A DNA stretch of 21,899 nt from a virus. The stretch is taken from the IMG/VR virus record IMGVR_UViG_3300030329_004383, positions 1 to 21,899 of that record; one strand, 5' to 3'. Under the pieces are notes generated by a model, which ran no database searches, had not been told where the DNA came from, and was given only the letters and a program-made list of their open reading frames with translations. The translations under genes and the position numbers were made by a program. Positions 3,719-19,038 of this stretch are shown here, piece after piece; the first letter of the stretch is position 1; each line of letters opens with the position of its first letter.

Positions 3719-4327
3719 ATGGCGAGGTCATCAGTAGACACGAAAGGTTTTCAGCAGATGATGCGTGATTTGTCTTTCATCAAAGGCAAGGACTTGGCCG
3801 AAGTCGTAAAAGAAGAAGCCACGGCCGTGCTGAACAAGGCCACCAAATCCACCAAGGCCGCCAAAGTTGCCAAAATTAAAAACGAAGAACAAAGACTGCA
3901 CGCATGGTTTCAGTCTGAAGCGAAAGCAGGCAAGCCGGTCAGGGCATCAGTTCAGAAACGTAAACTGGCAGCCGTTAAAAAGCGCCAACAAGAAAAGCTT
4001 TTAATGCGAGGCATGGCCAAAGGCACCTATTACCTAATTGGCCGCCAGCTTGGGTTGCAAGTCGAAGCCCCATCCTATGCCGTCAAGGCAGTGGAAAAGG
4101 CACGCAGTAAACTTTCCAACGCAGTAAAAGGCACCGTTTCTGGCACTGATAAATACGAAGTGACTATCAAAAACTTTTCAATCGTTGCCATGACCTATGA
4201 TGCCGGTGGTTACCGCGCTTTTACACGCGCCATGCGTGGCCGAATGTCTTATTTTCAAAGGCGCTTGCAGGACGGTTTTAGAAAGCGAATCAAGAAAGCA
4301 GTGAAGACCAAGGCGAAGGTTACTTGA
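3719..4327 (+). CDS. Basic helical protein of unknown function between terL and gpW
   Basis: The product is about 202 residues and strongly basic, rich in Lys, Arg and Ala. The N-terminal part (TKGFQQMMRDLSFIKGKDL) is followed by a long helix (about 35-85) and a C-terminal basic helix ending KRIKKAVKTKAKVT. The ATG at 3719 is preferred over the upstream in-frame ATG at 3584 because the 45 extra residues lie inside the terminase gene and look like out-of-frame translation. The layout (short N-terminal helix, long helix, compact C-terminus) loosely recalls HK97 gp10-like or phage virion-morphogenesis proteins. No diagnostic motif is visible, and this is not the usual place for a neck protein. 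A DNA-binding or head-assembly role is only inferred from charge and neighbours. Confidence 0.7.
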   Translation: MARSSVDTKGFQQMMRDLSFIKGKDLAEVVKEEATAVLNKATKSTKAAKVAKIKNEEQRLHAWFQSEAKAGKPVRASVQKRKLAAVKKRQQEKLLMRGMAKGTYYLIGRQLGLQVEAPSYAVKAVEKARSKLSNAVKGTVSGTDKYEVTIKNFSIVAMTYDAGGYRAFTRAMRGRMSYFQRRLQDGFRKRIKKAVKTKAKVT

Positions 4328-4332
4328 CGAAA
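4324..4332 (+). promoter_or_regulatory. TTGACGAAA element upstream of the gpW-like gene
   Basis: TTGACGAAA begins 20 bases before the ATG at 4344 and includes the TGA stop of the preceding gene. The same core occurs at similar spacing before four other starts (6168, 6743, 15414, 21260). I infer an initiation-related element; function is unproven. Confidence 0.35.
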
Positions 4333-4343
4333 GGCCATTGTTG

Positions 4344-4595
4344 ATGGCCGCAATTCCACAATCCACGCTTGAAACGATTCGTGATAACCTGCTGACGGCA
4401 TACACCACCTTAAGCACGAACAACGTTTCCAGCTATTCGATAGGTGACCGCAGCTTCACCTATCAAGACCGTGGCGCCTTGCTGGAAGAAATCATGCGCC
4501 TGGACAAGCTGATCGCACGGCGCGACACAACCACAGCCACGGTTGTTGGTTATAACAGGGTGGATTTTTCAACCTTTAGAGTGAACGACCAATGA
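4344..4595 (+). CDS. gpW-like head-tail joining protein
   Basis: This is a small 83-residue protein. It begins with a helix (STLETIRDNLLTAYTTL), then has a beta-hairpin-like segment (VSSYSIGDRSFTYQDR) and a second helix (GALLEEIMRLDKLIARR). This helix-hairpin-helix arrangement matches lambda gpW, which plugs the head-tail junction after packaging. Its position between terL and portal matches the lambda A-W-B order. The ATG at 4344 is used; TTG codons directly upstream could extend it by two residues. The TGA stop overlaps the portal start as ATGA (4592-4595). The assignment rests on size, predicted structure and synteny. Confidence 0.75.
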   Translation: MAAIPQSTLETIRDNLLTAYTTLSTNNVSSYSIGDRSFTYQDRGALLEEIMRLDKLIARRDTTTATVVGYNRVDFSTFRVNDQ

Positions 4596-6052
4596 CCTTT
4601 TTTCAACGAGCCAAGGCCGCCGGCAAAATACTTTTTGGCAACGCATACGCCGGCATACGAAACACGCGCCGCAGGGCGCACCGTTACACTCGAAACCTTG
4701 GCGCAGAGCATAGGGAATTTGACACTGGTGACCGTGAAAAGATGGCCAGCGTGCTGTTGGACTTCAGGCGCAACAACCCAACCATCAAAGCCATAAGCCG
4801 CTTGCGCCGCGCAGACGTCGTTGGCGCAGGCATCAGGCCGCAGGCAGTGACCGGTGACGAAGAACTAGACAAGCAACTGGAAGCGCTGTGGGAAGAATAC
4901 GCGCAGAATCCAGAAGTGACTGGCACCATGACCGTGGTGGAAGTTCAAAAGCAATTGGCCGAAATGCCACTTTGGTATGGTGACGGTGGCTTGATGCTGG
5001 CGCGAGGTGGGCAAGTGCAGGTCATCGAAGGCTTGCGGATTGGTGAACCTAGCAACGCATTCAACATATCCACGCCGCAGGAAGAAGGCAGGGCGCAGGG
5101 CGTGGAATTTACAAGATCAGGGCGGCCGGTGGCTTATCATATCGGCAACCGTGAAGACGGCAGCCTGAAGAACTTGGTTCGCGTGCCAGTGCGGAATTTC
5201 GCTTTTTACCAGAAAGCCATGCGGCCTGGGCAACTGCGTGGGGTCAGCGAATTGGCCAGCATCATCAATCTGGTTCAAGACCTCGATGAATACAAAAACG
5301 TTGAAATGTTGGCCGCCAAGATTGCCGCCAGCATGGCCGTGGCCGTGACTCGCGAGGATGCCCACGAATTTGAAATCGCCAACCGTTCGACTGATGAAGG
5401 CGAAGACCGTTTGCAAAGCTTTGAACCGGGCAGTTTCAACTACTTGAATCCGGGCGAGGATATTAAAATCATTAGTTCCGGCGGCCGCCCGAACACGCAG
5501 GCCATTGCTTACATCGAACACAGCTTGCGCGAAATCGGCAGCGCAATCGGCATACCCTTGGAATTTCTTACCCAAAGCATTGGCGGCAGTAGCTTTTCGG
5601 CTAGCCAAGGCGTTGTGCTTCAATACCAGCAAACGGTTGAAGAAGAACAAAGGGCGCTGGAACCAGTGTTAAACAAATGGTGGAAGTGGAAAGTTGTTGA
5701 ATGGTTGAAAGGCGGCGTTGTTGAAGCGCCTGCAAACAGCAGACCGTTCCGCGTCCGTTGGCGGCCACCTGCTTTTCGGTGGATCAACAAAGCCGCCCAA
5801 GTGCAAGCCGATCGGTTTTACGTACAACTGGGCGCCATGTCCTTGGATGACGTCACGGCTCAATTTGGCAAAGACGCTGCGGAAGTCATGGAACGCAAGG
5901 CCAAGAACATTGCGCAGGCCAAGGAAATCGCCGCGCAGTATGGTCTTGATGACTGGCGCGAGCTATTCAACGACATGCAGACCACAGGTGGCGTGGACAT
6001 TTTAGCGCTCCGCAACCAAGGCAAGGATGATGATTCTGCTGAAGTGGCTTAA
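4592..6052 (+). CDS. Portal protein, lambda gpB family
   Basis: This gene encodes the dodecameric ring at the capsid vertex through which DNA enters and to which the neck attaches. The product is 486 residues. It starts with a basic N-terminus (NTRRRAHRYTRN). Then come the portal-typical segment about replacing 'isrlrradvVGaGIRPQA' near residue 70, a wing region, and the clip/stem region rich in Q and D around residues 205-235 (RGVSELASIINLVQDLDEYKN). The segment GIPLEFLTQSIGGSSFSASQGV near residue 330 is characteristic of lambda-type portals. The order terL, gpW, portal, protease, capsid supports this strongly. The end of the gene overlaps a small membrane-protein gene in another frame by 26 bases. 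Confidence 0.93.
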   Translation: MTFFQRAKAAGKILFGNAYAGIRNTRRRAHRYTRNLGAEHREFDTGDREKMASVLLDFRRNNPTIKAISRLRRADVVGAGIRPQAVTGDEELDKQLEALWEEYAQNPEVTGTMTVVEVQKQLAEMPLWYGDGGLMLARGGQVQVIEGLRIGEPSNAFNISTPQEEGRAQGVEFTRSGRPVAYHIGNREDGSLKNLVRVPVRNFAFYQKAMRPGQLRGVSELASIINLVQDLDEYKNVEMLAAKIAASMAVAVTREDAHEFEIANRSTDEGEDRLQSFEPGSFNYLNPGEDIKIISSGGRPNTQAIAYIEHSLREIGSAIGIPLEFLTQSIGGSSFSASQGVVLQYQQTVEEEQRALEPVLNKWWKWKVVEWLKGGVVEAPANSRPFRVRWRPPAFRWINKAAQVQADRFYVQLGAMSLDDVTAQFGKDAAEVMERKAKNIAQAKEIAAQYGLDDWRELFNDMQTTGGVDILALRNQGKDDDSAEVA

Positions 6053-6185
6053 CCTAATCTGGGTGGCAATCAAGGCAGTGCTGATTGCGCCGCTTGTTGT
6101 CATTCCGTTCTGGTGGTTGTGCCTGCTAATCACCTTCAATTTGCCCTACATCATAAAAGGGTGGCGCTTGACGAAAACGGCTTAA
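6027..6185 (+). CDS. Small membrane protein (52 aa) between portal and protease
   Basis: This short gene begins within the last 26 bases of the portal gene (ATGATG at 6027-6032; the second ATG is equally possible) and stops at a TAA at 6183-6185. It encodes about 52 residues. Nearly all of residues 3-40 are hydrophobic (LLKWLNLIWVAIKAVLIAP, then LVVIPFWWLCLLITFNL), followed by a basic tail (KGWRLTKTA), so one long or two short membrane spans are expected. The gene exactly fills the gap between portal and protease, and its stop lies four bases before the protease ATG. This spacing supports a real coding gene. Function is unknown. A holin-like or membrane-anchoring role is possible, but no lysis partner is present. 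Confidence 0.6.
   Translation: MMILLKWLNLIWVAIKAVLIAPLVVIPFWWLCLLITFNLPYIIKGWRLTKTA
6168..6176 (+). promoter_or_regulatory. TTGACGAAA element upstream of the prohead protease
   Basis: TTGACGAAA begins 22 bases before the protease ATG at 6190 and lies inside the 3' end of the small membrane-protein gene. It repeats the nine bases seen at 4324. The function is inferred only from recurrence and spacing. Confidence 0.35.
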
Positions 6186-6189
6186 TTAG

Positions 6190-7203
6190 ATGACTGACCG
6201 GAAAACCTATCAATTAGCAGCCAAGCCCGATGCCGTAGACGCTGAAGCCGGCTTGATGCGTGACGTAACGATCATTGCTTTTGGCGAGGCTAAAGGCCAC
6301 GAGGCTTTCATTGATGACAAAAGCCTAGAGCAAGGCGTAAAGCTTTTAATGGGCAAAAGCCTGAAAGCCTACGTGACCCACGATGGCGCGTATGGTGACA
6401 GGACACTTGGCGAGGTTGGTTTATTTAGTGGCTTTTACCTTTTGGACGGCAAGATCAAGGCAAGCCAGTTTAAAGCTTTCGACAGTTTTCGCGCCGATGA
6501 GCCGGAAAGATATAACCGGCTTTTTGAATTGGCCGCGATGGCGCCGGAAGAATTCGGCATCAGCATTGTATTTACCGGCGAACTGGCGTGGCCTTTGCGT
6601 TCAGGTGATGACGCGCCTTTTGAATTTGGCGAAGATCGGCCGGCCGGCGCGGTTCGCGAACTGCCAAGCATTCGCATCAAGGACATCGAAAGCGCTGATT
6701 TCGTAGCGCAACCGGCAGCCACACCATCACTTTTCAATCAACTTGACGAATCAACCAATGATAACATGGAAGAAGAAACTTTAGAAACTGAAGAAACCGA
6801 ACTGGCTGAAGAAACAGAAGAACTTCAAGCCGGCACCTGTTCAGTGTCAGACTACGCTGACCAAGAATCATGCGAAGCCGCAGGCGAAACTTGGACAGAA
6901 GAAACCGAAGCCGAAGAAACTGAACCGGTTGAAGAAGTCGAGGAAGTCGAAGAAGTCGAGGAAGTCGAAGACGAAGCGCTTTCAAAACTTGTCGAACACA
7001 TTGCAATTTTAGAAGCAGAAGTAGCAGACGCTACTGAACGAATCAAAGCGCTTGACCAGCTTTTAGAAGGTCAACCGGCATTGGACGCGCAGACAGAAGA
7101 AGTCGAAAGCAAAAGCGTTCGTGACCACTACTTGCAACTTTCGGGCGCCGACAGGCATGCCTTTTGGAAAGCCCACAAAAACGAAATATTGCTGGGCAAG
7201 TAG
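6190..7203 (+). CDS. Prohead protease with scaffold-like acidic C-terminus
   Basis: This gene is predicted to mature the procapsid and to supply scaffold function. Residues about 10-185 form a protease-like domain. They contain YVTHDG at 61-66 with a candidate catalytic His64, EEFGISIVF at 120-128 with a candidate Ser125, and a conserved end SADFVAQPAATPSLF at 168-182 of the kind seen in phage Mu-I/U35-type proteases. The active-site residues are inferred. From about 190 the protein becomes extremely acidic, with an EEV repeat (248-260) and a coiled-coil segment (265-295), as in scaffolds. A short C217/C228/W235 insert lies inside the acidic part. An in-frame Met at 193 (base 6766), preceded by a TTGACGAA element, could start a separate scaffold protein as in lambda C/Nu3. 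The gene lies directly before the capsid gene, the expected place. Confidence 0.8.
   Translation: MTDRKTYQLAAKPDAVDAEAGLMRDVTIIAFGEAKGHEAFIDDKSLEQGVKLLMGKSLKAYVTHDGAYGDRTLGEVGLFSGFYLLDGKIKASQFKAFDSFRADEPERYNRLFELAAMAPEEFGISIVFTGELAWPLRSGDDAPFEFGEDRPAGAVRELPSIRIKDIESADFVAQPAATPSLFNQLDESTNDNMEEETLETEETELAEETEELQAGTCSVSDYADQESCEAAGETWTEETEAEETEPVEEVEEVEEVEEVEDEALSKLVEHIAILEAEVADATERIKALDQLLEGQPALDAQTEEVESKSVRDHYLQLSGADRHAFWKAHKNEILLGK
6743..6750 (+). promoter_or_regulatory. TTGACGAA element before an internal in-frame Met (nested scaffold start)
   Basis: TTGACGAA lies inside the protease gene, 23 bases before the in-frame ATG at 6766. The spacing matches the copies in front of ordinary genes. 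It may mark an internal translation start for a 145-residue scaffold protein (6766-7203). Confidence 0.35.
6766..7203 (+). CDS. Possible nested scaffold protein (internal start in protease gene)
   Basis: In-frame internal initiation at ATG 6766 would yield a 145-residue protein identical to the acidic, coiled-coil C-terminal part of the protease (residues 193-337). Lambda-type heads commonly make their scaffold this way: Nu3 is nested in C. The protease domain ends just before this Met, after its conserved PSLF segment. No separate scaffold gene is visible between protease and capsid. A TTGACGAA element precedes the Met at the spacing seen before real starts. Whether the internal start is used cannot be known from sequence alone. 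Confidence 0.4.
   Translation: MEEETLETEETELAEETEELQAGTCSVSDYADQESCEAAGETWTEETEAEETEPVEEVEEVEEVEEVEDEALSKLVEHIAILEAEVADATERIKALDQLLEGQPALDAQTEEVESKSVRDHYLQLSGADRHAFWKAHKNEILLGK
6934..6972 (+). repeat. Tandem 9-base repeat in the protease/scaffold gene
   Basis: Four tandem copies alternate GAAGTCGAG and GAAGTCGAA, so the true period is 18 bases; a partial fifth copy (GAAGAC) follows. They encode the EEV acidic run. The alternating last base means this is not a recent single-unit expansion. Copy number could vary between relatives. Confidence 0.85.
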
Positions 7204-7221
7204 CCCAAACATTTAAAAACT

Positions 7222-8115
7222 ATGGCTAACACAATCGCATCTGGACTGAATAACGCAATCGTTGCGGAATCGGCACTTGAAGCCTTCACCGCAGCCCTTG
7301 CGCCTCTCAACGCGTTTAGCGTTTCTTTTAATGACGATGCCGCCCAAAAGGGCAGCACAATTGACGTGCCTTTTGTTGCAACCGCAACTGCGGCAACCGA
7401 CTTTTCCAGCAGCTACAGCATGCAGGATTCCACGCTGAACACGAAGCAGGTTTCCTTGAACAAGCACAAGTATGCTTCTTGGTTCGTCACCGACACGGAA
7501 AGCGCCAACAGCAGCGCCGTGGCCTTGTCTCGATTCGGCGCCCAAAAGGGTTTTCAACTCGCCAAGGCAGTGTTTCAAGACGTGCTTTCAGTTGTCTTGA
7601 CAACCAACTATGGCGCGGCCGCTCTCACTTCCGCAGCCGGTTCCTTTGACGGTGACGACGTGGCCGACCTGCGAGGCTCTGCCATTGATTCCGACATCCC
7701 ACCAGAACAAGCCAACCTTGTACTTGATAACGCTTATTTCACGGCATTGCTGAAAGACAGCAACCTGCGCGGCGCAAATATTTACGGTGGCGCCGACGTA
7801 ATACAGGGCGGCAGTATTCCGCAACTGTTTGGCCTTGGTGGAATTCACGAGTCAAACATCTTGCCGGACAACAGCATTAACCTTGTTGGTTTCCTCGCCA
7901 GTCCAAATGCCATTGTGGCCGCCATGCGCTATCTCGCGCCAGTCGGTGGTGGTGATTACCTTAGCGCCAACAGTGTCAGCAATGACAGTGGCATGGTTCT
8001 GGGTTATCGCGAGTGGTATGACAATGATGCCGGCCAACTTCGCGCTGTCCTCGAAGCCTCTTACGGTTATGCCGTAGGTGACGGCAACGCCTGCAAAATC
8101 ATCGTTTCCAGCTAA
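7222..8115 (+). CDS. Major capsid protein
   Basis: This gene encodes the main shell subunit, 297 residues, with mixed alpha/beta composition and no long hydrophobic segment. The N-terminal region is rich in Ala, Ser and Thr (SALEAFTAALAPLNAFSVSF). The middle contains the segment DIPPEQANLVLDNAYFTALL, like the capsid phrase in which recombinant subunits place a helix after 'P...LVLD', and a late GYREWYDNDAGQLRAVLE followed by a C-terminal strand. The HK97 fold is inferred from size and position after the protease and before neck genes, not from a motif. There is no Shine-Dalgarno; the leader is A-rich (TTTAAAAACT before the ATG). It is the only major gene followed by a strong hairpin, which fits separate control of a highly expressed product. 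Confidence 0.83.
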   Translation: MANTIASGLNNAIVAESALEAFTAALAPLNAFSVSFNDDAAQKGSTIDVPFVATATAATDFSSSYSMQDSTLNTKQVSLNKHKYASWFVTDTESANSSAVALSRFGAQKGFQLAKAVFQDVLSVVLTTNYGAAALTSAAGSFDGDDVADLRGSAIDSDIPPEQANLVLDNAYFTALLKDSNLRGANIYGGADVIQGGSIPQLFGLGGIHESNILPDNSINLVGFLASPNAIVAAMRYLAPVGGGDYLSANSVSNDSGMVLGYREWYDNDAGQLRAVLEASYGYAVGDGNACKIIVSS

Positions 8116-8138
8116 TTGCTAAGTTGCGTTCATTCCTT

Positions 8139-8172
8139 GAAGCCTCGCTGGTTCCCATCCCAGCGAGGCTTC
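8139..8172 (+). terminator. Strong hairpin after the capsid gene, probable (partial) terminator
   Basis: GAAGCCTCGCTGG (8139-8151) and CCAGCGAGGCTTC (8160-8172) are perfect 13-base inverted repeats around an 8-base loop. The stem is GC-rich and stable. The following GCCTTTCC is only a weak T tract, so it may be an attenuator or an mRNA-stabilising 3' end rather than a full stop. It lies in the longest non-coding gap of the window (8116-8185). Downstream late genes would need read-through or their own promoter. Confidence 0.62.
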
Positions 8173-8185
8173 GCCTTTCCAAGTA

Positions 8186-8518
8186 ATGAGCGTAGGCACT
8201 ACCCAATTAAGCGCCGATCTGGACTTCATGCTGGGTCACTATTCAACGACCCTGACAGGCGTGGTGCCGACAACGATGGCCACGGCAACCTGGGAGGCCA
8301 GCAAGCAATCAATTCGCGATGGTTTCGACGTGGTAGATGCCGGCAGGGAAGTGACACTGGACACACGCTTTCATTTAAACGCCACAGCCACGGCAATCAT
8401 GCCCCAGCGTGGATGGGTTTTAACGGACGGTGCAACGAGATTCAAAGTAATCGAAAGGGAAACGGACGCAACCGGCGTGCTGTTGACCATCGATTGCGCA
8501 AGTAACTACCAACGATGA
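8186..8518 (+). CDS. Probable head-tail connector/neck protein
   Basis: The product is 110 residues. After an N-terminal helical part (STTLTGVVPTTMATATWEAS) the sequence is beta-rich. It ends with a segment built like head-closure proteins of the lambda gpFII type (GWVLTDGATRFKVIERETDA, then a final strand). It lies directly after the capsid hairpin, where head-completion genes are expected. The ATG at 8186 is 13 bases after the hairpin. A longer overlapping frame from 8116 is a shadow. The TGA stop forms an ATGA overlap with the next gene. The function is inferred from position and fold-like pattern only. Confidence 0.6.
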   Translation: MSVGTTQLSADLDFMLGHYSTTLTGVVPTTMATATWEASKQSIRDGFDVVDAGREVTLDTRFHLNATATAIMPQRGWVLTDGATRFKVIERETDATGVLLTIDCASNYQR

Positions 8519-8784
8519 GCAAGACCATTACAGTACGGCCGGCGCATGGCAGAATAACAGGCGAGGGCTGGGTGGCCGGTGGCGTGCATGACGGCAAGTT
8601 GCTGCGCAGCGACAACGGCAAAGCAATTCCATTAAATCAAATCAGCGGCCTCGTTTACGTAGGGCCACCTAAATCAATCAAGATCAATGAGCCGAAAAGG
8701 AAAAGGAAGAAGAAAGAAGTCTTCAAGCCAGACGATTTCGACACTGGCGCAATCGAAGAACAAGAAGCCGATTTCAGCGCCTAA
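8515..8784 (+). CDS. Small protein of unknown function, basic patch near the C-terminus
   Basis: The product is 89 residues: a beta-rich N-terminal part (VRPAHGRITGEGWVAGGVHD, then LLRSDNGKAIPLNQISGLVY), a highly basic run (KRKRKKK, 62-68) and an acidic tail (DDFDTGAIEEQEADF). I do not recognise the family. It starts in an ATGA overlap with the connector gene. Its last 98 bases overlap the start of the first glycosyltransferase in another frame. It may be a head or neck accessory protein, or the first gene of the glycan cassette. The A/G-rich stretch in the overlap (about 8695-8720) is notable. Confidence 0.6.
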   Translation: MSKTITVRPAHGRITGEGWVAGGVHDGKLLRSDNGKAIPLNQISGLVYVGPPKSIKINEPKRKRKKKEVFKPDDFDTGAIEEQEADFSA

Positions 8785-9880
8785 GATTGCGCTTTATTTA
8801 ATCGGTCACGCGCCCGATGCGGTTTACGTGCCGCAATTACTAGCCAGCGCAGATGGCGCTTTTGACGTCTTGGTATACGTCGACACCAGCAAGGACAAGG
8901 CGTGCAGGCAGGCAGTTGAAGGCTGGGCAGGCCAGCATGGCGTTGAATTAAAAGCCTACGACTTTGACAATTGGCCAGATGGCTTCCACTACGGCGAGGC
9001 TCGAGCGTTTGCAAAAATCCAAGCTGAAAACACAGGCGCCGACTGGTGCTTTTGGCTAGACTTGGACGACGTGCTGCAACCGGGCTGCGTTGATCGGATC
9101 AGGGCGCAGGCTGAAGCCAAGGACGTTGATTGTTGGGGCTGGGTTTACGAGGTAAAAGGCACAGGCAAATTCATGCGTGAACGCATGACTCGCCCAACGC
9201 ACGGCAAATGGCGCCGGCGCATCCATGAACTAATGGATTTTAAAGACGGCACGCGCATGAAGCCCGATAATGAGTGCGTGGTTGTTCACATGCCGCAAGA
9301 CAGTAAAAGCAACCATGCCCAGCACATAAAGATTTTATGGAATGAAATGCCGAACCTTGGCCCGAACTTGGTTTACTTGGCGAAGGAACACAAGAATTCG
9401 GCACGCTATGACGAAGCCGAAGAACTTTACAAACTAGCCCTTGAAGCGATGCGTTCCAAGGTTGTGGACTTTGACAATCGCGTGGAATCCCACAACGCCT
9501 TGACCGACTTGGCAAAACTTGCCCACCGCAAGAATGACCTGCCCACCGCGCGGCGCTATTTCTTGGAAGCAATCGAGTGCGACCCACAGCGGCGCGAAGG
9601 CTATTTTTATTTAGCTGAAATGGCGTGCGTAGATAAGGACTGGAAAGCAGCCCTTGGTTGGATTCGCGCCGCCAACGCGCAGCCAAAGCCCAACCTGCCG
9701 CTGCTGGAAGATCAAGTTTACGACAACTTCAGCATGCGCCTGCATTGGCGCGTCTTGGCAAGGTGCCACGAATTTGAAGAAGCCAACAACGTGTGCCAGC
9801 ACTTTGCAAAATTTTTGGGAACGGAAGACCCCAGCATTAAAAATGAAATGGAAATCCTAAACATATTGGCAAGCGCATGA
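8687..9880 (+). CDS. Glycosyltransferase (GT2-like) with TPR repeats
   Basis: The enzyme is predicted to transfer a sugar from a nucleotide donor in the cytoplasm. The GT-A fold begins at about residue 32 (KIALYLIGH). It includes FHYGEARAFAKIQAEN (100-115) and a metal-binding DLDD at 125-128 after WCFW. A basic KWRRRIHE segment (175-182) is typical of this GT2/TPR class. Residues about 228-345 form TPR-like helices (YDEAEELYKLALEA; PTARRYFLEAIECDP), often used to bind a protein acceptor. The first 31 residues are Lys/Ser-rich and lie inside the previous gene. ATG 8687 is the only canonical in-frame start near the domain, so either this long overlap is real or the domain is reached by frameshift or reinitiation. 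The gene ends with an ATGA overlap onto the next. Confidence 0.83.
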   Translation: MSRKGKGRRKKSSSQTISTLAQSKNKKPISAPKIALYLIGHAPDAVYVPQLLASADGAFDVLVYVDTSKDKACRQAVEGWAGQHGVELKAYDFDNWPDGFHYGEARAFAKIQAENTGADWCFWLDLDDVLQPGCVDRIRAQAEAKDVDCWGWVYEVKGTGKFMRERMTRPTHGKWRRRIHELMDFKDGTRMKPDNECVVVHMPQDSKSNHAQHIKILWNEMPNLGPNLVYLAKEHKNSARYDEAEELYKLALEAMRSKVVDFDNRVESHNALTDLAKLAHRKNDLPTARRYFLEAIECDPQRREGYFYLAEMACVDKDWKAALGWIRAANAQPKPNLPLLEDQVYDNFSMRLHWRVLARCHEFEEANNVCQHFAKFLGTEDPSIKNEMEILNILASA

Positions 9881-10494
9881 AGGCTTATTGCTGGTTGACT
9901 GAATCACATGCCGGCTTGCTGGAAGAATTCCTTTTGCCCAGCCTGCCGGAAAGCATGCCCATCAGCGTGGTGGTGGGTGACCAAGATTGCCCTAGTGGCG
10001 AGTTTATGAAGGAAGGGTGGCGCGAAAGCATGAAGGCTCGCTGCAAGTGGTGGGCTGAAATCGTGGCCAATGAAAAGGAACCATTCCTTTTGCTTGATGC
10101 CGACGTGCAATTTTTCAAAGACCCACGCGAGGACTTGTCGAGCCGCTTGCAAGACTTTGAACTGGTTGGACAGTATGACGTTTATACGCCTATTTGTTGC
10201 GGCTTAATGGCAGTGCGTCCGACAAGGGCAACACGCCAGCTATTTATTCACATCTGGCAACAGTTTGAAGGCTTTGCAAATGACCAGATTGCCCTCAATA
10301 GCAACCTTGATGGGCTGGACTGGGCAAGCTTGCCGGAAACCTACTGGACAATAGGACAAGCCAACGGTGGGCAGGTTTGGACGCAAGGCCAAGAAGTAAA
10401 CCCACCGGCCGACTTAATTGCCCACCACGGCAATTTCACCGTAGGGCTGGAAGATAAAGCGGCGCTGATGCGGCAAGTGAAGGGCATGCAATGA
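9877..10494 (+). CDS. Glycosyltransferase, nucleotide-diphospho-sugar transferase (GT77-like)
   Basis: This 205-residue, probably cytoplasmic GT-A enzyme shows LLLDADVQFFKD (71-82), with the DxD motif that binds the metal and sugar nucleotide. It also has NDQIALN at 135-141 and an AHHGNF segment at 182-187. These match the Nucleotid_trans/GT77 pattern: an acidic NDQ loop and a late His-rich segment. The acceptor and sugar are unknown. The gene is translationally coupled at both ends (ATGA at 9877-9880 and 10491-10494). It lies directly upstream of the sialyltransferase, so it probably builds the acceptor glycan. The family assignment is by motif only. Confidence 0.78.
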   Translation: MKAYCWLTESHAGLLEEFLLPSLPESMPISVVVGDQDCPSGEFMKEGWRESMKARCKWWAEIVANEKEPFLLLDADVQFFKDPREDLSSRLQDFELVGQYDVYTPICCGLMAVRPTRATRQLFIHIWQQFEGFANDQIALNSNLDGLDWASLPETYWTIGQANGGQVWTQGQEVNPPADLIAHHGNFTVGLEDKAALMRQVKGMQ

Positions 10495-11018
10495 AGGGCG
10501 AAGCCATTTGCATCGTGGGCAATGCCCCAGACATGAAAGGCAGCGGATTGGGCGCAACCATCGATGCTTTCCCGCGCGTCTTGCGTTTTAACAATTTCCA
10601 CTTGGAAGGTTATGAGGTGGACGTTGGCACAAAGACCACTGACTGGTGCCTTGCCAATAACGCCAACCAATACCACCGGCCTGAAGTAGGCGCGAAGCTT
10701 TGGCGCACGAACCGGCCGCAGTGGTATGACCAATTAGTGCGGATTGAAGGTGACCGGATGGTGCCAATTGAAATCGCAAGGGAAGGCGAGCTTGCCGTTG
10801 GCATCGACCCTAGCCGGCAGCATTTAAGCAGCGGCCTCGCCATACTTTATTACTTCTGGAAGGAAGGCGCCGAAATAACCTTTTGCGGATTGGGCGGCAC
10901 GGTTGGTGATCATTATTACGACAAAACCAATTACCCAGGCAGCACTTGGCATGACATGGTAAAGGAAAGGGCGTGGCTTTCGCGTATGGTAAGGGAAGGG
11001 GAACTGGTGGAACTGTGA
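10491..11018 (+). CDS. Sialyltransferase-like protein, GT29 family
   Basis: The predicted reaction is transfer of sialic acid from CMP-sialic acid to a glycan acceptor. All four GT29 sialylmotifs can be recognised in 175 residues. Motif L (about 6-53) has ICIVGNAPDMKGSGLG, then VLRFNNF and EVDVGTKTTDW, like the eukaryotic C-VVGNSG...G-G..ID...VLR.N...G...DVG..TT pattern. Motif S (about 106-136) has PSRQHLSSGLAILYYFWKEG, then TFCGLG. Motif III is HYYD (141-144), and VS is the H(x4)E of HDMVKE (154-159). There is no N-terminal membrane anchor or stem, so it would be a soluble minimal catalytic domain. It lies directly before NeuB, NeuC and NeuA-like genes that would make its donor. It starts in an ATGA overlap; the stop overlaps the NeuB GTG start. 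Confidence 0.8.
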   Translation: MKGEAICIVGNAPDMKGSGLGATIDAFPRVLRFNNFHLEGYEVDVGTKTTDWCLANNANQYHRPEVGAKLWRTNRPQWYDQLVRIEGDRMVPIEIAREGELAVGIDPSRQHLSSGLAILYYFWKEGAEITFCGLGGTVGDHYYDKTNYPGSTWHDMVKERAWLSRMVREGELVEL

Positions 11019-12043
11019 AGATCGAAGGCCGCGAAATCAGTGAAGATGCCGACCCTTTGTTTATTGCGGAAATCGGCATCAACCACGAAGGCAGTTTAGA
11101 CCATGCGAAGTGGCTCGCCACGATGGCCGTGACGGCAGGGGCAAGGGTCATCAAGCACCAGACGCACGTGATTGCGGACGAAATGACCGATGCCGCCAAA
11201 ATGGTCAAACCGGGCAACACGGATGCAAGTATTTGGGAAGTGATGGAACGCTGTGCCTTGGGTGAAGCGGAAGAAAGGAAACTGAAAGCCCACGTGGAAA
11301 GCCAGAAAGCCACTTTTATTTCCACGCCATTTAGCAGGGCGGCAGCCGACAGGCTCGAACGAATGAACGTGAGCGCCTACAAAATAGGGTCAGGTGAGTG
11401 CAATAACCTGCCGCTGGTTGGCCACGTGGCGGCCTTTGGTAAACCCATGATTGTTTCCACCGGCATGAATGGCATGGAAAGCGTAAGCGAAACCGTGGAA
11501 GTGTTGCAGGCCGCAGGGGTGGAATTCGCCTTGCTGCACTGCGTGAACAGTTACCCGCAACCGTATGCAGACACGCGACTGGATTGCATCACGGAAATGC
11601 GCGAGGCATTCCCCAGCGTGCCTATTGGCTTAAGTGACCACACGCCGACCATTTGGACGGCACTGGCTGCCGTTGGCCTTGGTGCCTGCATCATTGAAAA
11701 ACACGTCACCGACAGAACCAGCAGAAAAGGCCCAGACGTACCGTTTAGCCTTACACCTGCGCAAATCTTTGAACTGGTCACGGCCATTCGCGCGGTTAAG
11801 CAAGCGCGTGGTGGCGGCAAGGGGATGGTTGCCAGCGAAGAAGTCACTGCAAAGTTTGCTTTTTCTACCGTGGTGACCACCGCATCAGTTAAAAAACATG
11901 AGTGTTTAACCGATGAAAATCTATGGGTAAAGCGTCCGGGCATTGGTGATTACCCTGCGGCCGATTATCAAGACTTGCTTGGCGCCTACGCCACACAAGA
12001 CTTGCCGGCAGGTCATCATCTGATGATGGGGGATATTAAGTGA
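11015..12043 (+). CDS. neuB: N-acetylneuraminate (sialic acid) synthase
   Basis: The enzyme condenses ManNAc (or a related sugar) with phosphoenolpyruvate to make a nine-carbon sialic acid, in the cytoplasm. The product is 342 residues, close to the usual NeuB length. Residues 1-270 are the TIM barrel, with AEIGINHEG (18-26), KHQTH (47-51), STPF (103-106), YKIGSGE (122-128), the metal-ligand region SDHT (207-210) and EKHVTDRTSRKGPD (228-241). The C-terminal 60 residues form the antifreeze-like SAF domain. The start is GTG 11015, giving a GTGA overlap with the sialyltransferase stop; a longer reading from 10973 adds residues that do not match the family. A legionaminate or pseudaminate synthase is possible from sequence alone, but the neighbours favour neuraminate. 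Confidence 0.93.
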   Translation: MKIEGREISEDADPLFIAEIGINHEGSLDHAKWLATMAVTAGARVIKHQTHVIADEMTDAAKMVKPGNTDASIWEVMERCALGEAEERKLKAHVESQKATFISTPFSRAAADRLERMNVSAYKIGSGECNNLPLVGHVAAFGKPMIVSTGMNGMESVSETVEVLQAAGVEFALLHCVNSYPQPYADTRLDCITEMREAFPSVPIGLSDHTPTIWTALAAVGLGACIIEKHVTDRTSRKGPDVPFSLTPAQIFELVTAIRAVKQARGGGKGMVASEEVTAKFAFSTVVTTASVKKHECLTDENLWVKRPGIGDYPAADYQDLLGAYATQDLPAGHHLMMGDIK

Positions 12044-13104
12044 AACAGGTTTTGTTTATAACCGGCAGCCGCGCCGACTGGGGCAAACTGGTCACGCTTG
12101 TGCGCCGTGTCCACAATTGCCCAGACTTCCACGCCAGAGTATTTGTGACAGGAACGCATTTGCAAATTGCCTACGGCCACACGGCAAACGACATAAACGC
12201 CGGATTTGAGCAGGTGCGAAAATGTAACTTGGCTTCAAGCCCGGACCTGTCGCTGGCCAAGACGCTGGAAGGATTGGCCAGCATCGACCTGCCTGACTTG
12301 GTGGTGGTACATGGTGACCGAATGGAAGCCCTTGCCGGCGCCATTTACGGACTAACCAGAAGCCTGCCGGTTGCCCACGTCGAAGGTGGTGAATTTTCGG
12401 GCAGCATGGATGAATCCACGCGCCACGCCGTGACCAAGCTGGCAACTCACCATTTCGTGGCCAACCAAGACGCTGCCGATGCTGTGCAAGCTTTGCAGGA
12501 AGACCGCAAACGCATCCACATAATTGGCAGCCCAGATTTGGACGTGATGCTGAACGAGTCACCGCTTGACCTGCGTGGCTTGATTCCATTTGCCGCCAAG
12601 GATTATGGCGTGCTGTGTTTCCACCCAGTCACCACGGAACTGGACAAGTTGGACGAACAGGCCAAGGAAGTGGCTGCTGCGGCAGATTTGTCAGGGGAAA
12701 ACTGGGTGGTGATTATGCCTAATAATGACCTTGGCCACTATCGCATTGAGGTGGCCTTCAGGCGCTTTCAGGGGTGCCGTTTTTACGTCCAGCACCACCT
12801 GCGATTTGAGAGCTTTTTATCTGTTTTGCAGAACGCCAAGTTTATGATGGGAAACAGCAGCGCAGGCGTGCGCGAAGCGCCGGCCTTTGGCGTGCCTTCC
12901 ATAAACGTTGGGAGCCGGCAAAACGGCCGTTATAAATGCGAGGGCATTGCCGACGTGCCGGCAGAACGCGAGGCCATTATGGCAGCCCTTGCCAACCCAC
13001 CAAAGGCAAAGCCCGATCATCATTTTGGCGAAGGAAAGGCAGCCCAAGGATTCATGGCGCGGCTGCGTGACGAAAAGTTCTGGAAAGTGCCGGTGCAAAA
13101 ATGA
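12040..13104 (+). CDS. neuC: UDP-N-acetylglucosamine 2-epimerase (hydrolysing), NeuC-like
   Basis: The enzyme hydrolyses UDP-GlcNAc with inversion at C2 to give ManNAc, the NeuB substrate. The product is 354 residues with two Rossmann-like halves. It shows GSRADWGKL (9-17), a VVVHGDRMEALAGA segment with HGDR at 91-94, HVEGGEFSGSMDESTRHA (113-130) with the conserved acidic pair, a family-typical GSPDLD (163-168), and GNSSAGVREA (271-280) in the nucleotide-binding half. The start is GTG 12040 in a GTGA overlap with neuB. The end overlaps the next gene by ATGA. It could instead use a UDP-diacetamido sugar (LegG type), but no dehydratase, aminotransferase or acetyltransferase for that route lies here. 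Confidence 0.92.
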   Translation: MKQVLFITGSRADWGKLVTLVRRVHNCPDFHARVFVTGTHLQIAYGHTANDINAGFEQVRKCNLASSPDLSLAKTLEGLASIDLPDLVVVHGDRMEALAGAIYGLTRSLPVAHVEGGEFSGSMDESTRHAVTKLATHHFVANQDAADAVQALQEDRKRIHIIGSPDLDVMLNESPLDLRGLIPFAAKDYGVLCFHPVTTELDKLDEQAKEVAAAADLSGENWVVIMPNNDLGHYRIEVAFRRFQGCRFYVQHHLRFESFLSVLQNAKFMMGNSSAGVREAPAFGVPSINVGSRQNGRYKCEGIADVPAEREAIMAALANPPKAKPDHHFGEGKAAQGFMARLRDEKFWKVPVQK

Positions 13105-13757
13105 AACACAAAGACGATATAACTGTCTGCTTTCAAAGTAGGCTGGAAAGTGAACGCATCCCAAACAAGATGCTGGAACCGTTTGCCGGCACCACGCTGT
13201 TTGATCTAGCCCTTGCGAGGCTGGAAATGGTGGACGCGCCGAATAAGTTCGTGAGTTGTCGCGGCTGGGAATTGGAACAAAGGGCAAGCAAGTTCAGTTT
13301 GCCGATATTCGAGCGCAGCGAACAATCCGCGCTTGAGGAAGAATGCTTGGCCACAATGTTCGAGTGGTGCCGTGAATACGTGCAAACCGAATGGGTTGCA
13401 TGGTTCAACCCATGCCTGCCGATGCTGAAGGTTACGGCAATAAACGATTTCCTGACCGACTTCATGGCCTGCGAGGATGACGGCATGCTGGCGGCCGTGG
13501 AAACCAAGAATTACTTTTTTGAAGAAAGCGGCGAGCCAGTTGCGGCAGGCAGTGAAACCTTGAACACTAAAACGGCACCCATCCTGTACCGCGCGGCGCA
13601 TGCCATTTATGCCACACGCACTGAGGACATCAAGGCAGGCAGGCTTTTCAGGGTGCCGCCAAAACTTTGGCCGATGCGTGACGATGAACAACTAATCGAC
13701 ATCGACTGGCCGTGGCAGTTCCGCATGGCTGAAGTCTACTTCGAGGCGCAATGCTGA
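13101..13757 (+). CDS. CMP-sugar synthetase, NeuA/SpsF-like cytidylyltransferase
   Basis: The enzyme is predicted to activate sialic acid with CTP to CMP-sialic acid, the donor for the GT29 gene. The product is 218 residues, close to a minimal CMP-NeuAc synthetase. The N-terminal nucleotide-binding loop reads FQSRLESERIPNKML (11-25). It keeps the basic residues R14, R19 and K23 but resembles SpsF-type Q-x-R-x-x-S-x-R-x-P-x-K-x-L more than classic NeuA. An NPCLPM segment (103-108) and a C-terminal DIDWPWQFRMAE (200-211), with two conserved acidic positions, follow the CTP_transf_3 pattern. I name no gene symbol because the loop is divergent. It starts in an ATGA overlap with neuC. The next gene overlaps by seven bases. 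Confidence 0.75.
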   Translation: MKHKDDITVCFQSRLESERIPNKMLEPFAGTTLFDLALARLEMVDAPNKFVSCRGWELEQRASKFSLPIFERSEQSALEEECLATMFEWCREYVQTEWVAWFNPCLPMLKVTAINDFLTDFMACEDDGMLAAVETKNYFFEESGEPVAAGSETLNTKTAPILYRAAHAIYATRTEDIKAGRLFRVPPKLWPMRDDEQLIDIDWPWQFRMAEVYFEAQC

Positions 13758-14551
13758 ACGTCTTCACCATCGTGCTGAATGGGCAGCCATTCATTGAGCG
13801 GCACCACTTGCAGCTTGAAAAGCTTTCCATTCCTTGGCGCTGGACGATTTGCGAAGGCCCAAGCAAAGCAATAAAGGACACTTCCCATTGCACCACCTTA
13901 ACGGCCGACTGGTACGAACCCGATGGGCGCAGCGTGGATGGCACGGCAGAATATTTAAACATGCTCGAGCAGGAAGATTCGCGTTGCACCGTTCTACGTG
14001 AATCAATGTGGGAAGGAAAGACCGCGCAATGCAACGCAGCCCTTGCGACTTTCGACAGGGCAGGGGTTTTAATGCAAATTGATTCGGACGAATTGTGGAC
14101 GGCAAGCCAATTGGCCACCGTTTACAGTGTACTGAAAAACAGCACAACGCACAACGCCGCCACCTTTTGGTGCCGTTATTACGTCGGCGCCGACTTGGTG
14201 CTTTCCACTGTTCCAGGCTACGCAAATAATCCAGCCTATGAGTGGCGCAGGGCGTGGCAGTTTCAGCCCGGTGATTTTTTCAAGACGCACGAACCGCCGG
14301 TTTTGCAGGGCAAGGAAAAGTATTTACCACAGGACACGATGGCGCGCCTTGGGTGCGTGTTTGACCACGCAAGTTATTGCACGCTCGAGCAGATGGAACT
14401 GAAAGCGGCCTTTTACAGTCACATGCCCAACCTGCTGGATGGTTGGCAGCGGATGCAATCAGCACTACCACCCTTTGATTTAAAGACCTATTTGCCGTGC
14501 TGCTACACCAGCAGCCAAGTGATAAGAACCCAAAACATACTACATCAATGA
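13751..14551 (+). CDS. Glycosyltransferase, GT2-like
   Basis: This 266-residue predicted cytoplasmic transferase begins with a strand (LNVFTIVLNGQPFIERH). It has an SVDGTAEYL loop (61-69), a WEGKTAQCNAAL segment (87-98) and the DxD-like LMQIDSDELW (107-116) that would bind metal and nucleotide sugar. A later EWRRAWQFQPGDFF segment and a C-terminal FYSHMPNLLDGW helix complete a GT-A layout. Donor and acceptor are unknown; it could add an inner or capping sugar. It overlaps the NeuA-like gene by seven bases and the next gene by ATGA, so it belongs to the same translated unit. Confidence 0.75.
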   Translation: MLNVFTIVLNGQPFIERHHLQLEKLSIPWRWTICEGPSKAIKDTSHCTTLTADWYEPDGRSVDGTAEYLNMLEQEDSRCTVLRESMWEGKTAQCNAALATFDRAGVLMQIDSDELWTASQLATVYSVLKNSTTHNAATFWCRYYVGADLVLSTVPGYANNPAYEWRRAWQFQPGDFFKTHEPPVLQGKEKYLPQDTMARLGCVFDHASYCTLEQMELKAAFYSHMPNLLDGWQRMQSALPPFDLKTYLPCCYTSSQVIRTQNILHQ

Positions 14552-15195
14552 ACATATATTTGTGCCACCCAAGCAGGGGCAGGCCGGACATGGCGGCCGA
14601 CTGCATAAAAGACTGGAAAAGCAAGGCGCAGGCGCCCGATAAAATAAGGCACTTTCTTTCACTGGACGCAGACGACCCCACCAGAAGCCTTTACCCTGAA
14701 GCAGATGAAACCTTGATCAATGAAAACGCCGGCATGGTGCAGGCAATAAACAGGCTGCTGCCTTTGTGCGAAGATGAAAACGGCTTGCTGGTTACCCTTT
14801 ACGATGACTTTAGCCCGCCCGAACGGTGGGACAGGTGGCTGGCTGGATTGATAAAAGCCAAAGGCGCCGGCGTTGTTTTCGTGGATTGCTGCAATCACCA
14901 GTTGCAAACCATCCAAATTGGCAGCGTTTCAGTTTTTAAAAGATGGGGCTACGTGTTGCACCCAGAGTATAAATCAATGTTTAGCGACAACGATTTTACT
15001 GAACACGCCACCACGGACGAAAGCACCACCGTGATCGATGCAAGGTTTGCCCTGCTTTTCGAGCATTCGCACCCAGTCATCACTGGACGTGACGAAGACA
15101 TGGATGAAACTTACAGGCGCACCAATGCGCAAGACCGTTATGACCAAGGCGCCGCCATACTTGAAAAACGCCGCGCCAACAACTTTGCCGCATGA
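14548..15195 (+). CDS. Glycosyltransferase-like protein (GT-A fold)
   Basis: The product is 215 residues and starts with a strand and loop typical of GT-A enzymes (NIYLCHPSRGRPDMAADC). It has FLSLDADDP (37-44), YDDFSPPERWD (85-95) with an acidic pair likely to bind metal, and SDNDFTEHA (146-154), which resembles the DN-F-E-A loop of phage and bacterial GT2-type enzymes. ATG 14548, in the ATGA overlap, is preferred. An upstream ATG (14497) adds 17 residues inside the previous gene. It is the last clear glycan gene of the cassette; the next gene starts in an ATGA overlap. Confidence 0.68.
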   Translation: MNIYLCHPSRGRPDMAADCIKDWKSKAQAPDKIRHFLSLDADDPTRSLYPEADETLINENAGMVQAINRLLPLCEDENGLLVTLYDDFSPPERWDRWLAGLIKAKGAGVVFVDCCNHQLQTIQIGSVSVFKRWGYVLHPEYKSMFSDNDFTEHATTDESTTVIDARFALLFEHSHPVITGRDEDMDETYRRTNAQDRYDQGAAILEKRRANNFAA

Positions 15196-16392: not shown

Positions 16393-19038
16393 ATGGCGAA
16401 TTTGGGCATATTGGCAAAGCTTGGGGTTGATTCGACTTCCCTGAAAGCCGGCCTTGTTTCGGCCAAGAAAAGCGTTGCCGACTTTGCCAAAAGCGCCGGC
16501 GGCATGTTGCTTGGTTTAGCTGGGGCGGCAGGATTTGGGGCAGTGATTCGCAGTGCCATTTCCTTTGGTTCCACCATGTCAGACCTAGCAGACAGGACTG
16601 GCACCACCGTTGAAGAATTTGGCGCCTTGCGTGACATTGCAAGGGATGCCGGCGTGCAGCAATCAGTGCTGGAACGTGGCTTGCGAAACGTGGCGCTGCG
16701 AGCGCAAGAGGCAGTGGACGGTAATAAGGATTATGGCGAAGCCTTGGAACGGTTGGGCATCAATGCCAAAAAGTTCGTGGGCTTAAGCACGGCCGATAAG
16801 TTTGAAGCCATTGCCATTGCCGTTAATGACGCAAAAAACAAAAGCCAAGCTTTTGCAGATTCAGCGAAAATTCTTGGTGAAAAAGCTGGGCCACAGTTAA
16901 CCGAAGTTTTGCGGCGCTTGAAAAGTGAAGGGCTGGACGAAATCAAAAAGGGTTTGATGGAAAGCGGCGCCATAATGGATGGCGAAACCGCAGCAGCCTT
17001 GGACGGTCTGGAAGATGACCTGCAACGATTCAAGGACACGGTGGTTATTACGTCCGGCAAACTGCTTACCAAGATGATGCCCACGCTGAAATCAGTGGCC
17101 GGCACCATTGGCAACTTGTTTAAAGCGATTGCGCCAACGGTTATAGTTTTAAGCAAGCTGGCCGCAATTGTGTTGGTGGTCAAAGGCACAATGATGGCTG
17201 CGACCGTAGCCGCAAAAGCATACGCGGCAGTTCAGCTTTTATTGACCAACGGATTGAAAAAGGCGCGTGCTGCAATGATTGCTTTCAATGCTGCCATGAG
17301 GGCCAACCCAATCGGCGCGGCAATTGCCGTAATTTTGGCTGCCGTGGCTGCCTACAAGTTGTTTTTTGGTGGCATGAGTAAAACCGAAAAAGCGGCCAAC
17401 GCACTGAAAGACGAAATCGAAAGCCTTAAAGAAGAGCAAGAAAAGTATAAACAAGAAACCGAAGAAACCAAAAGCCGTGTCGATGCTCTGCGCAAGTCCA
17501 TGCAGGAACTGCGCAAAGAGTATGAACAAGCGGACATGACCAACCCGGAAATCATCGAGCAGAACACTAAAGAGCTTAAGCAAAACAATTCCAAAATAGA
17601 CACACTAAAAAAGCAGATCAAGGAACAGCAAAAACTGGCAGCTGAAGCAAAGATTACCCAGCAGGTTGCCAATGAGGCAGCCATTGCGCTTTTAAGGGCA
17701 GGTGAAGGCAGGGACGAAAAGGCTGTAATAATGAACTCGAAGGCTTATTTGCGAAGCGTTCGAGATTCCGAGAACGCCACCATAGACCTAAACAAAGCAG
17801 AGGCTGCGCACGTTGCACTGGTTGAAGAACTAACCGAACTGCAAAAGGAAAATCTGATCCTTGGCCAGAAAACGGAAACCCTGAAAAAAGAACATGCCGC
17901 CGACACGGCAGAGGCGAATGAAAAAAGCATCAAGTCGCAAAAGGAACTGGAAAGCATCTTACAGGATATCAACAAGGAACATAAACTAAGCAAAGACGCG
18001 CAGGCCAAACTTGCAGATGACGCTGAAAAGTTGCCGGAACTAATGAAGGAACAGGCACGCCTTGCGATGCTTGTAAAGGAAGGCCACAAATTAACCGTTT
18101 CCGAAAGTGAACAGTTGATTGCCCGCCAAAAGGAAATCTTGCGAATTCAGGGCGCAATGGCCGGCGAAGCGAAACGCCTAGCCGACATTGAAAGCCAGCG
18201 AGTCAAAGACCTTCAAAATGACTTGAAGGTGGCGCGGCAAGATGAACTGAATATGGTCAGGAACTTAGTTGGCGAACTGCGCAACGCCGCCAATGAAGAA
18301 GAAAGAAAAGCGAAGGCCGCCAAGGATGCCGCCCAGGCTAAAGAAAAAGAAGTGGCCGACCTACGCAAAGAGTTGGCCGGCGCCGAAAAGGGTTTAGACC
18401 CTTTCCGCAAGTTCTTTGCCGTTGACCCCAATTTGCGTGGTGGTGGTGGTGGCGTGCGCGCCAACACTGCTGCAATGGCTCGCGAATTTCGCAAACTTAG
18501 GCGCGAAGGTGACTTGCCGGAAATCTTGGACGCAGAGGGAAAAGGCACCGGCAAGCGTGTTAGGACACTGCGCGAATTTCAGGAACACATCATTGCGCAG
18601 GCCAAGGCAGCCAAAAAGCAAAGGGATGATATAGTGGCGCGAGGCAAGGCCGCAAAGGCTGAAGCCGCAAAGCTGCGAGCCGACCAGAAAGCCCATGAAG
18701 AAAAGTTGGCTGGTATAAAAGAAAAGGTGCAGAAAAAGGAACGCGCCATTTTAAAGATGCGCGAAAAGTTGCAAGACAAGGAACTGCGGAATTTGAAAGA
18801 ACTACGGAAGGCGCGCAAGGATTTGGAAAACGTTTTGAAGCAGGCAGAAAAGGGTGTGAACGTTGTTGTTCGCGGCCAGCAATTCGGCAAGCCGGCAGCC
18901 GGCCAAGTGGTGGCAGTGAACGTGCCGAAACCTGTGGTAACGGTTCAAGGTGATAACAACTTCCGCGATGACATTGCAAGCGAAGCCACGGCCAGACGAA
19001 CGGCAGAGGCGCTTGAAGGTAAATTTGTAAATCAATAA
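16393..19038 (+). CDS. Tape measure protein
   Basis: This 881-residue protein should set tail length and occupy the tail lumen. The N-terminal domain (about 1-230) is typical: LGVDSTSLKAGLVSAKKSV, then DLADRTGTTVEEFGALRDIA. Two hydrophobic stretches follow, at about 244-286 and 306-325, like the membrane-active parts of many tape measures. Long coiled coils with charged heptads cover about 330-545, 560-665 and 700-840, separated by a Gly5 run near 680. The C-terminus (about 845-881) is a compact segment. At roughly 1.5 angstroms per residue for a helical rod the tail would be on the order of 130 nm, but that ratio varies between phages and this is an estimate only. The start one base after the chaperone stop suggests coupled translation. 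Confidence 0.95.
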   Translation: MANLGILAKLGVDSTSLKAGLVSAKKSVADFAKSAGGMLLGLAGAAGFGAVIRSAISFGSTMSDLADRTGTTVEEFGALRDIARDAGVQQSVLERGLRNVALRAQEAVDGNKDYGEALERLGINAKKFVGLSTADKFEAIAIAVNDAKNKSQAFADSAKILGEKAGPQLTEVLRRLKSEGLDEIKKGLMESGAIMDGETAAALDGLEDDLQRFKDTVVITSGKLLTKMMPTLKSVAGTIGNLFKAIAPTVIVLSKLAAIVLVVKGTMMAATVAAKAYAAVQLLLTNGLKKARAAMIAFNAAMRANPIGAAIAVILAAVAAYKLFFGGMSKTEKAANALKDEIESLKEEQEKYKQETEETKSRVDALRKSMQELRKEYEQADMTNPEIIEQNTKELKQNNSKIDTLKKQIKEQQKLAAEAKITQQVANEAAIALLRAGEGRDEKAVIMNSKAYLRSVRDSENATIDLNKAEAAHVALVEELTELQKENLILGQKTETLKKEHAADTAEANEKSIKSQKELESILQDINKEHKLSKDAQAKLADDAEKLPELMKEQARLAMLVKEGHKLTVSESEQLIARQKEILRIQGAMAGEAKRLADIESQRVKDLQNDLKVARQDELNMVRNLVGELRNAANEEERKAKAAKDAAQAKEKEVADLRKELAGAEKGLDPFRKFFAVDPNLRGGGGGVRANTAAMAREFRKLRREGDLPEILDAEGKGTGKRVRTLREFQEHIIAQAKAAKKQRDDIVARGKAAKAEAAKLRADQKAHEEKLAGIKEKVQKKERAILKMREKLQDKELRNLKELRKARKDLENVLKQAEKGVNVVVRGQQFGKPAAGQVVAVNVPKPVVTVQGDNNFRDDIASEATARRTAEALEGKFVNQ

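Follow-up and report, generated by a model that had tools for sequence, protein, structure and literature searches.

A predicted CMP-sialic acid synthesis and glycan-capping cassette in the virion operon of a phage lineage

A virus fragment of 21.9 kb, IMG/VR record IMGVR_UViG_3300030329_004383 (21,899 nt, the whole stretch analyzed here and hereafter called the window), carries a glycan cassette of eight plus-strand open reading frames (ORFs) at positions 8687–15195, between head-completion genes and tail-side genes. In order, the cassette encodes a GT2-like transferase with tetratricopeptide repeats (TPR), a PF03407 transferase, a GT29 protein, NeuB, NeuC, a NeuA-type synthetase, another GT2-like transferase, and a phage glycosyltransferase, a gene set that predicts a cytidine monophosphate (CMP)-sialic acid pathway together with transferases. 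An initial sequence-only reading had described eight glycan genes on one strand between head-completion and tail genes, and all eight ORFs lie where it placed them. Its further claim that every junction is an overlap holds for the resolved junctions, although two starts had to be moved (NeuB from 10973 to a GTG at 11015, and the last transferase from 14497 to an ATG at 14548). With these corrections the resolved junctions become 4-base ATGA or GTGA overlaps, apart from one of 7 bases at 13751, and the end of the cassette likewise overlaps the next tail-side ORF by 4 bases at 15192. The first transferase has an ambiguous start: from the ATG at 8687 it would share 98 bases with the upstream ORF, a layout also found in an independent contig, L002.

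In the known biochemistry of these families, NeuC converts uridine diphosphate-N-acetylglucosamine (UDP-GlcNAc) to N-acetylmannosamine (ManNAc), NeuB condenses this with phosphoenolpyruvate to N-acetylneuraminic acid (Neu5Ac), NeuA uses cytidine triphosphate (CTP) to form CMP-Neu5Ac, and GT29 enzymes transfer the sugar to yield a sialylated acceptor. The window NeuC (12040–13104), a predicted hydrolysing UDP-GlcNAc 2-epimerase, scores 307.3 bits against TIGR03568 and passes its equivalog cut-off of 235.9, and its nearest solved structures are hydrolysing epimerases. NeuB (11015–12043 from the corrected start), a predicted N-acetylneuraminate synthase, combines a TIM barrel (PF03102, 1e-67) with an SAF domain (PF08666, 3.5e-8). 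Its top match among solved structures is SiaC, the Neu5Ac synthase of N. meningitidis, at 53% identity (181 of 342 columns); at the catalytic and substrate-contact positions compared, the two agree throughout, with E25, K53, T110, K129, S132, E134, N184, Y186, H215, H236, D247 and R314 in common, and they differ at five residues of the loop at 70–85. Position 184 carries Tyr in the legionaminic acid (Leg) pathway and Ser in the pseudaminic acid (Pse) pathway, according to published work that compares the synthases of these pathways with those for Neu (PMC7371886); the window NeuB has Asn there, as in N. meningitidis, and matches that enzyme at the positions which this work discusses.

We placed NeuB in a tree of 125 proteins whose bacterial rows were gathered with the window NeuB as bait, and in which other bacterial clades are under-represented. 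The window and L002 proteins share a long branch that groups with the bacterial Neu-type set and lies apart from the NeuBs of other viruses; identity to bacterial NeuBs is at most about 55%. A NeuC-type gene lies nearby in 76 of the 80 closest bacterial NeuB loci found.

The third enzyme of the pathway was formerly a weak call. The protein at 13101–13757 scores 28.6 bits against PF02348 (CTP_transf_3; cut-off 22.6), and a single-sequence search of the PDB returned no convincing match. A profile built from 14 viral sequences ranked mouse CMP-Neu5Ac synthetase first among PDB entries (5e-9), with ketodeoxyoctonate (Kdo) synthetases (KdsB) at 0.067, and profile-profile alignment to bacterial NeuA with hhalign gave a probability of 98.5% (E 4e-15). 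Its structural model reached a predicted local distance difference test (pLDDT) score of 81, and the top 14 Foldseek matches were all CMP-nonulosonate synthetases, specific for CMP-Neu5Ac, CMP-ketodeoxynonulosonic acid (CMP-Kdn) or CMP-Pse. The C-terminal DxD is retained (D200, D202), and the first motif reads R..S.R.P.K in place of ARGGSKG. NeuB is present in all 13 other viral contigs that carry this NeuA subfamily. Profiles and fold thus now make a firm prediction, that of a nonulosonate cytidylyltransferase from a divergent phage subfamily. The profile and fold rankings make a role of the Kdo or SpsF type less likely. The families that the sequence-only reading had proposed for NeuB, NeuC and GT29 were recovered directly by profile searches, and its NeuA/SpsF-like call came out as NeuA after this additional profile, profile-profile and fold work.

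The GT29 protein (10491–11018) is a compact sialyltransferase-like protein of 175 amino acids that matches PF00777 at 54.2 bits (cut-off 23). Its motif L region aligns to solved mammalian sialyltransferases, including an ST3Gal-type enzyme. Across six viral GT29s (from the window, L002 and, four times, the megaphage LR756508), 18 columns are invariant, most of them sialylmotif hallmarks: VGN, R.N, VG..T, S.G, HY and H....E. The conserved stretches are what we take to be sialylmotifs L, S, III and VS. The 175-residue protein keeps all of the hallmark residues and is predicted to use CMP-sialic acid.

Four other transferases accompany these enzymes. The first (8687–9880, start ambiguous) is a GT-A/GT2-like glycosyltransferase with a C-terminal TPR region, matching phrog_13126 ('beta-1,4-glycosyltransferase', 3e-28) with weak GT2 and TPR matches, and is 70% identical to its L002 counterpart. 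The second (9877–10494), a nucleotide-diphospho-sugar transferase-like protein (PF03407, 29.8 bits, cut-off 22), is 63% identical to its counterpart. The GT2-like protein at 13751–14551 falls just below the PF00535 cut-off (21.9 bits against 23.3; 1.8e-4), and the last protein (14548–15195 from the corrected ATG) matches phrog_14945 ('glycosyltransferase', 1.5e-10) and has homologues in Arthrobacter phages that carry a glycosyltransferase annotation. PADLOC gave no defence match for the cassette glycosyltransferases.

The flanks are viral and lie on one strand, with DNA methyltransferase, large terminase (TerL), portal, major capsid and tape measure genes recognized by family searches. Small genes separate the cassette from the major capsid gene (7222–8115; phrog_283, 1.8e-19), whose product is a candidate acceptor, and tail-side genes follow it, including the tape measure gene (16393–19038; phrog_8462, 5.5e-25). 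Upstream of the terminase, positions 67–1314 encode a protein with ParB-like and DNA methyltransferase regions. GC content at third codon positions (GC3) in the cassette resembles that of the structural genes, and composition is homogeneous. Promoter-like and terminator-like patterns in the cassette region show no excess over shuffled sequence.

The same arrangement recurs in L002, which runs from the end of TerL through portal, capsid and small genes and then has cassette genes one to six, ordered as in the window. Cassette proteins of the two contigs are 63–87% identical, GT29 being at 87%. The ratio of nonsynonymous to synonymous divergence (dN/dS) between them spans 0.03–0.17 across the cassette, rough estimates because synonymous sites are near saturation; it is lowest for GT29, at about 0.03, where even the uncorrected ratio (pN/pS) is 0.12. 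These low values indicate that the cassette genes are maintained as functional proteins. No close phage without the cassette was found, as the portal is common to only three contigs, two of them too short to judge, and scans with the tape measure protein and the first transferase gave no further phage relatives.

We surveyed viral GT29 proteins by motif-based and seed-based scans of records that are mostly fragments, so any claim of rarity carries lower confidence. The motif scan returned 37 viral records with GT29-like proteins, L002 among them; a scan of genome contigs with GT29 gave no match. In the other 36 records and the megaphage, NeuB occurs in 14 and a cytidylyltransferase in 17, often adjacent, and NeuC was found in none of these 37. 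From the side of NeuB, 13 of 15 viral relatives are accompanied by a cytidylyltransferase and three by NeuC (L002, L003 and L004). Many of the viral records combine NeuB with NeuA, with or without GT29, and two combine NeuB with NeuC, but all four families together were found in none of some 60 other viral records bearing GT29, NeuB or NeuA, and only in the window and L002. The sequence-only reading, which knew of no standard phage module of this kind, is therefore upheld for the full four-family set but not for its parts: environmental phage contigs commonly carry partial nonulosonate and GT29 modules, in some cases beside packaging genes.

Phage contigs with GT29, NeuB and NeuA (L049–L051, L039, L054, L058, L059) resemble the window in setting GT29 near a NeuB-family synthase, often with a cytidylyltransferase, but in these and in LR756508 no NeuC was found and the NeuBs belong to other clades; L039, L050 and L054 are large glycan islands, unlike the window cassette. 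L003 and L004 have NeuB adjoining NeuC, as in the window, but no cytidylyltransferase or GT29 was found on either contig, and their NeuBs fall outside the window clade. On L003 (3862–11020), genes for an epimerase, NeuB, NeuC and a FabG-like protein come after TerL and portal, with NeuB and NeuC both above their NCBIfam cut-offs; by its predicted genes, L003 is a second phage lineage with NeuB and NeuC beside packaging genes.

Other arrangements came to light in the same survey. The unannotated record of the 484-kb uncultured phage LR756508.1 (L021) holds at 4203–11019 a single cluster of four GT29 genes, three in tandem, with a NeuB-family synthase and GDP-fucose-type genes. One phage contig (L143, 396–8687) bears two nonulosonate modules, one with dehydratase, NeuB and aminotransferase genes and a phage-type NeuA, the other with NeuB and a second phage-type NeuA whose genes directly overlap. 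Two contigs (L025, 5810–9236; L024, 2529–6413) have a lone GT29 in the packaging and morphogenesis region, just downstream of TerL.

Among bacteria, the marine Oleispira has a GT29-NeuB-NeuC-NeuA operon (L081, 5979–10861) whose gene order is that of the phage cassette, and Moritella viscosa has the same enzymes as neuA-neuB-neuC, on the chromosome beside capsule genes. Bacterial Neu5Ac operons are chromosomal and their NeuA is of the ordinary ARGGSKG type, in contrast to the divergent phage type.

Sequence and profiles, with a structure model for NeuA, show which families the proteins belong to, that their catalytic residues are conserved, how the operon is laid out and that selection is purifying; which sugar is made, what the enzymes do, whether they are expressed together late in infection and what they act on are inferred. 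The reading we favor, with somewhat better than even confidence, is that the phage encodes a CMP-Neu5Ac pathway and glycan-capping module that would be expressed with its virion genes, the acceptor most likely being a virion protein. In this model NeuC would draw on host UDP-GlcNAc to make ManNAc, NeuB would use phosphoenolpyruvate to make Neu5Ac, and the NeuA-type enzyme would activate it with CTP to CMP-Neu5Ac or a close relative. The four other transferases may build a short glycan that GT29 would cap with sialic acid from CMP-Neu5Ac, with soluble glycosyltransferases acting in the cytoplasm on one of the phage's own structural proteins. A virion protein is the most likely acceptor because prediction gave no likely membrane helix in any of the cassette proteins, the cassette lacks a flippase, a membrane anchor and a lipid-carrier transferase, and the site lies between head and tail genes. 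We count in favor of this model the protein families and motifs, the NeuB clade, the NeuC neighbors of bacterial NeuB, the NeuA assignment by profiles and fold, the co-occurrence of NeuA and NeuB, the Oleispira gene order, L002, GC3, the overlaps and the lack of any excess of promoter-like or terminator-like patterns, and also the lone GT29 just downstream of TerL in another phage type.

Several observations weigh against it. The window NeuB, at 341.9 bits, falls short of the TIGR03569 equivalog cut-off (399.65), as does Oleispira NeuB by a small margin (396.0). The top solved-structure match of NeuC is a LegG-type epimerase, with human GNE close behind. Of 87 columns with at least 95% conservation among bacterial NeuCs, the window NeuC matches 68, which makes it divergent. 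The AlphaFold model of GT29, built from two sequences only, has a pLDDT of 32, a low confidence that reflects too few sequences. L002 ends inside NeuA, which leaves the window as the sole source for the two final transferases and for the junction downstream. The genome is partial, and the analysis, which covered sequence and structure prediction, pinpointed no acceptor.

The CMP-Neu5Ac from the same pathway might instead serve late in infection to modify a glycan on the surface of the host cell, which could, for instance, prevent superinfection or keep progeny from readsorbing; the sequence-only reading had put forward the host surface as well as virion proteins. Moritella, with its enzymes in a capsule or surface-polysaccharide locus, and the chromosomal gene order of Oleispira both fit this, and phage-encoded enzymes that modify capsule nonulosonates are reported in Acinetobacter (PMC12053666, PMC6586298). 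We nonetheless consider a surface target unlikely for a cassette that has no export or membrane-anchoring step and sits within a structural operon.

Slightly less probable still is that the product is a close relative of Neu5Ac (Leg, Kdn or another acylated neuraminic acid) made from host-supplied precursors. The NeuC and NeuB families include LegG and LegI as well, the best structural match of NeuC is of LegG type, and TIGR03569 does not define the sugar, since L003 NeuB passes it from outside the window clade. Set against this, the substrate-contact positions compared in NeuB match the N. meningitidis enzyme, including Asn 184, and the window contains no Leg or Pse dehydratase or aminotransferase, in keeping with the initial remark that LegB/LegC/LegH- and PseB/PseC-type genes are lacking.

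We think it very improbable that the transferases decorate hypermodified phage DNA with a terminal sialic acid. Some viruses are known to encode transferases through which DNA is hypermodified with glycans (Pyle et al. 2024, cited in PMC12619734), but no base hypermodification enzyme was recognized in the 21.9 kb of this partial genome, only the ParB-like/DNA methyltransferase protein, and the cassette is located among virion genes. Least credible of all is a bacterial sialic acid operon fused to a phage contig by misassembly, one of the outcomes that the sequence-only reading named as its own refutation: single enzymes do have bacterial homologues and one bacterium shows the same gene order, but L002 excludes an assembly error by sharing the phage-cassette junction and order at the protein identities given above, and the overlap into the downstream phage gene, the homogeneous composition and the long NeuB branch also oppose it.

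Virion glycosylation by phage-encoded enzymes has precedent. Mycobacteriophages (Che8, Rita and others) encode glycosyltransferases, and their capsid and tail proteins are glycosylated (Freeman et al. 2023, cited in both PMC11256854 and PMC12619734); they resemble the window in encoding their own glycosyltransferases and set a precedent for a virion-protein target. The passages on these phages mention no sialic acid pathway or GT29, whereas the window itself encodes synthesis of the donor sugar. Entries for neuA and neuB occur in virome tables (PMC3877843, PMC10653327), a sialyltransferase is annotated in phage TayeBlu (PMC12772287), and marine actinophages carry sialic acid cleavage genes (PMC7771536). 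In the open-licence literature our searches turned up no description of a full CMP-sialic acid pathway in a phage. Each of the gene types has known counterparts elsewhere; what is new, as far as our searches show, is not phage-encoded glycosylation but a self-supplied sialic acid donor, with the full set in a virion operon.

As far as these searches show, this would be the first phage lineage recognized with a full predicted route from UDP-GlcNAc to CMP-sialic acid and a matching transferase in its virion operon, and the survey indicates that GT29 proteins and nonulosonate synthesis genes are recurrent but little described in environmental phage genomes. Phage sialylation becomes directly testable, and GT29 proteins of 175 amino acids offer very small enzymes for study. 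We regard as evenly balanced the broader proposition that some tailed phages produce sialic acid de novo and, with a minimal GT29 enzyme from the family of the animal sialyltransferases, cover their own virions with it, which would make these sialylated and negatively charged. Such a capacity would bear on how phages change the surface charge, stability and recognition of their particles.

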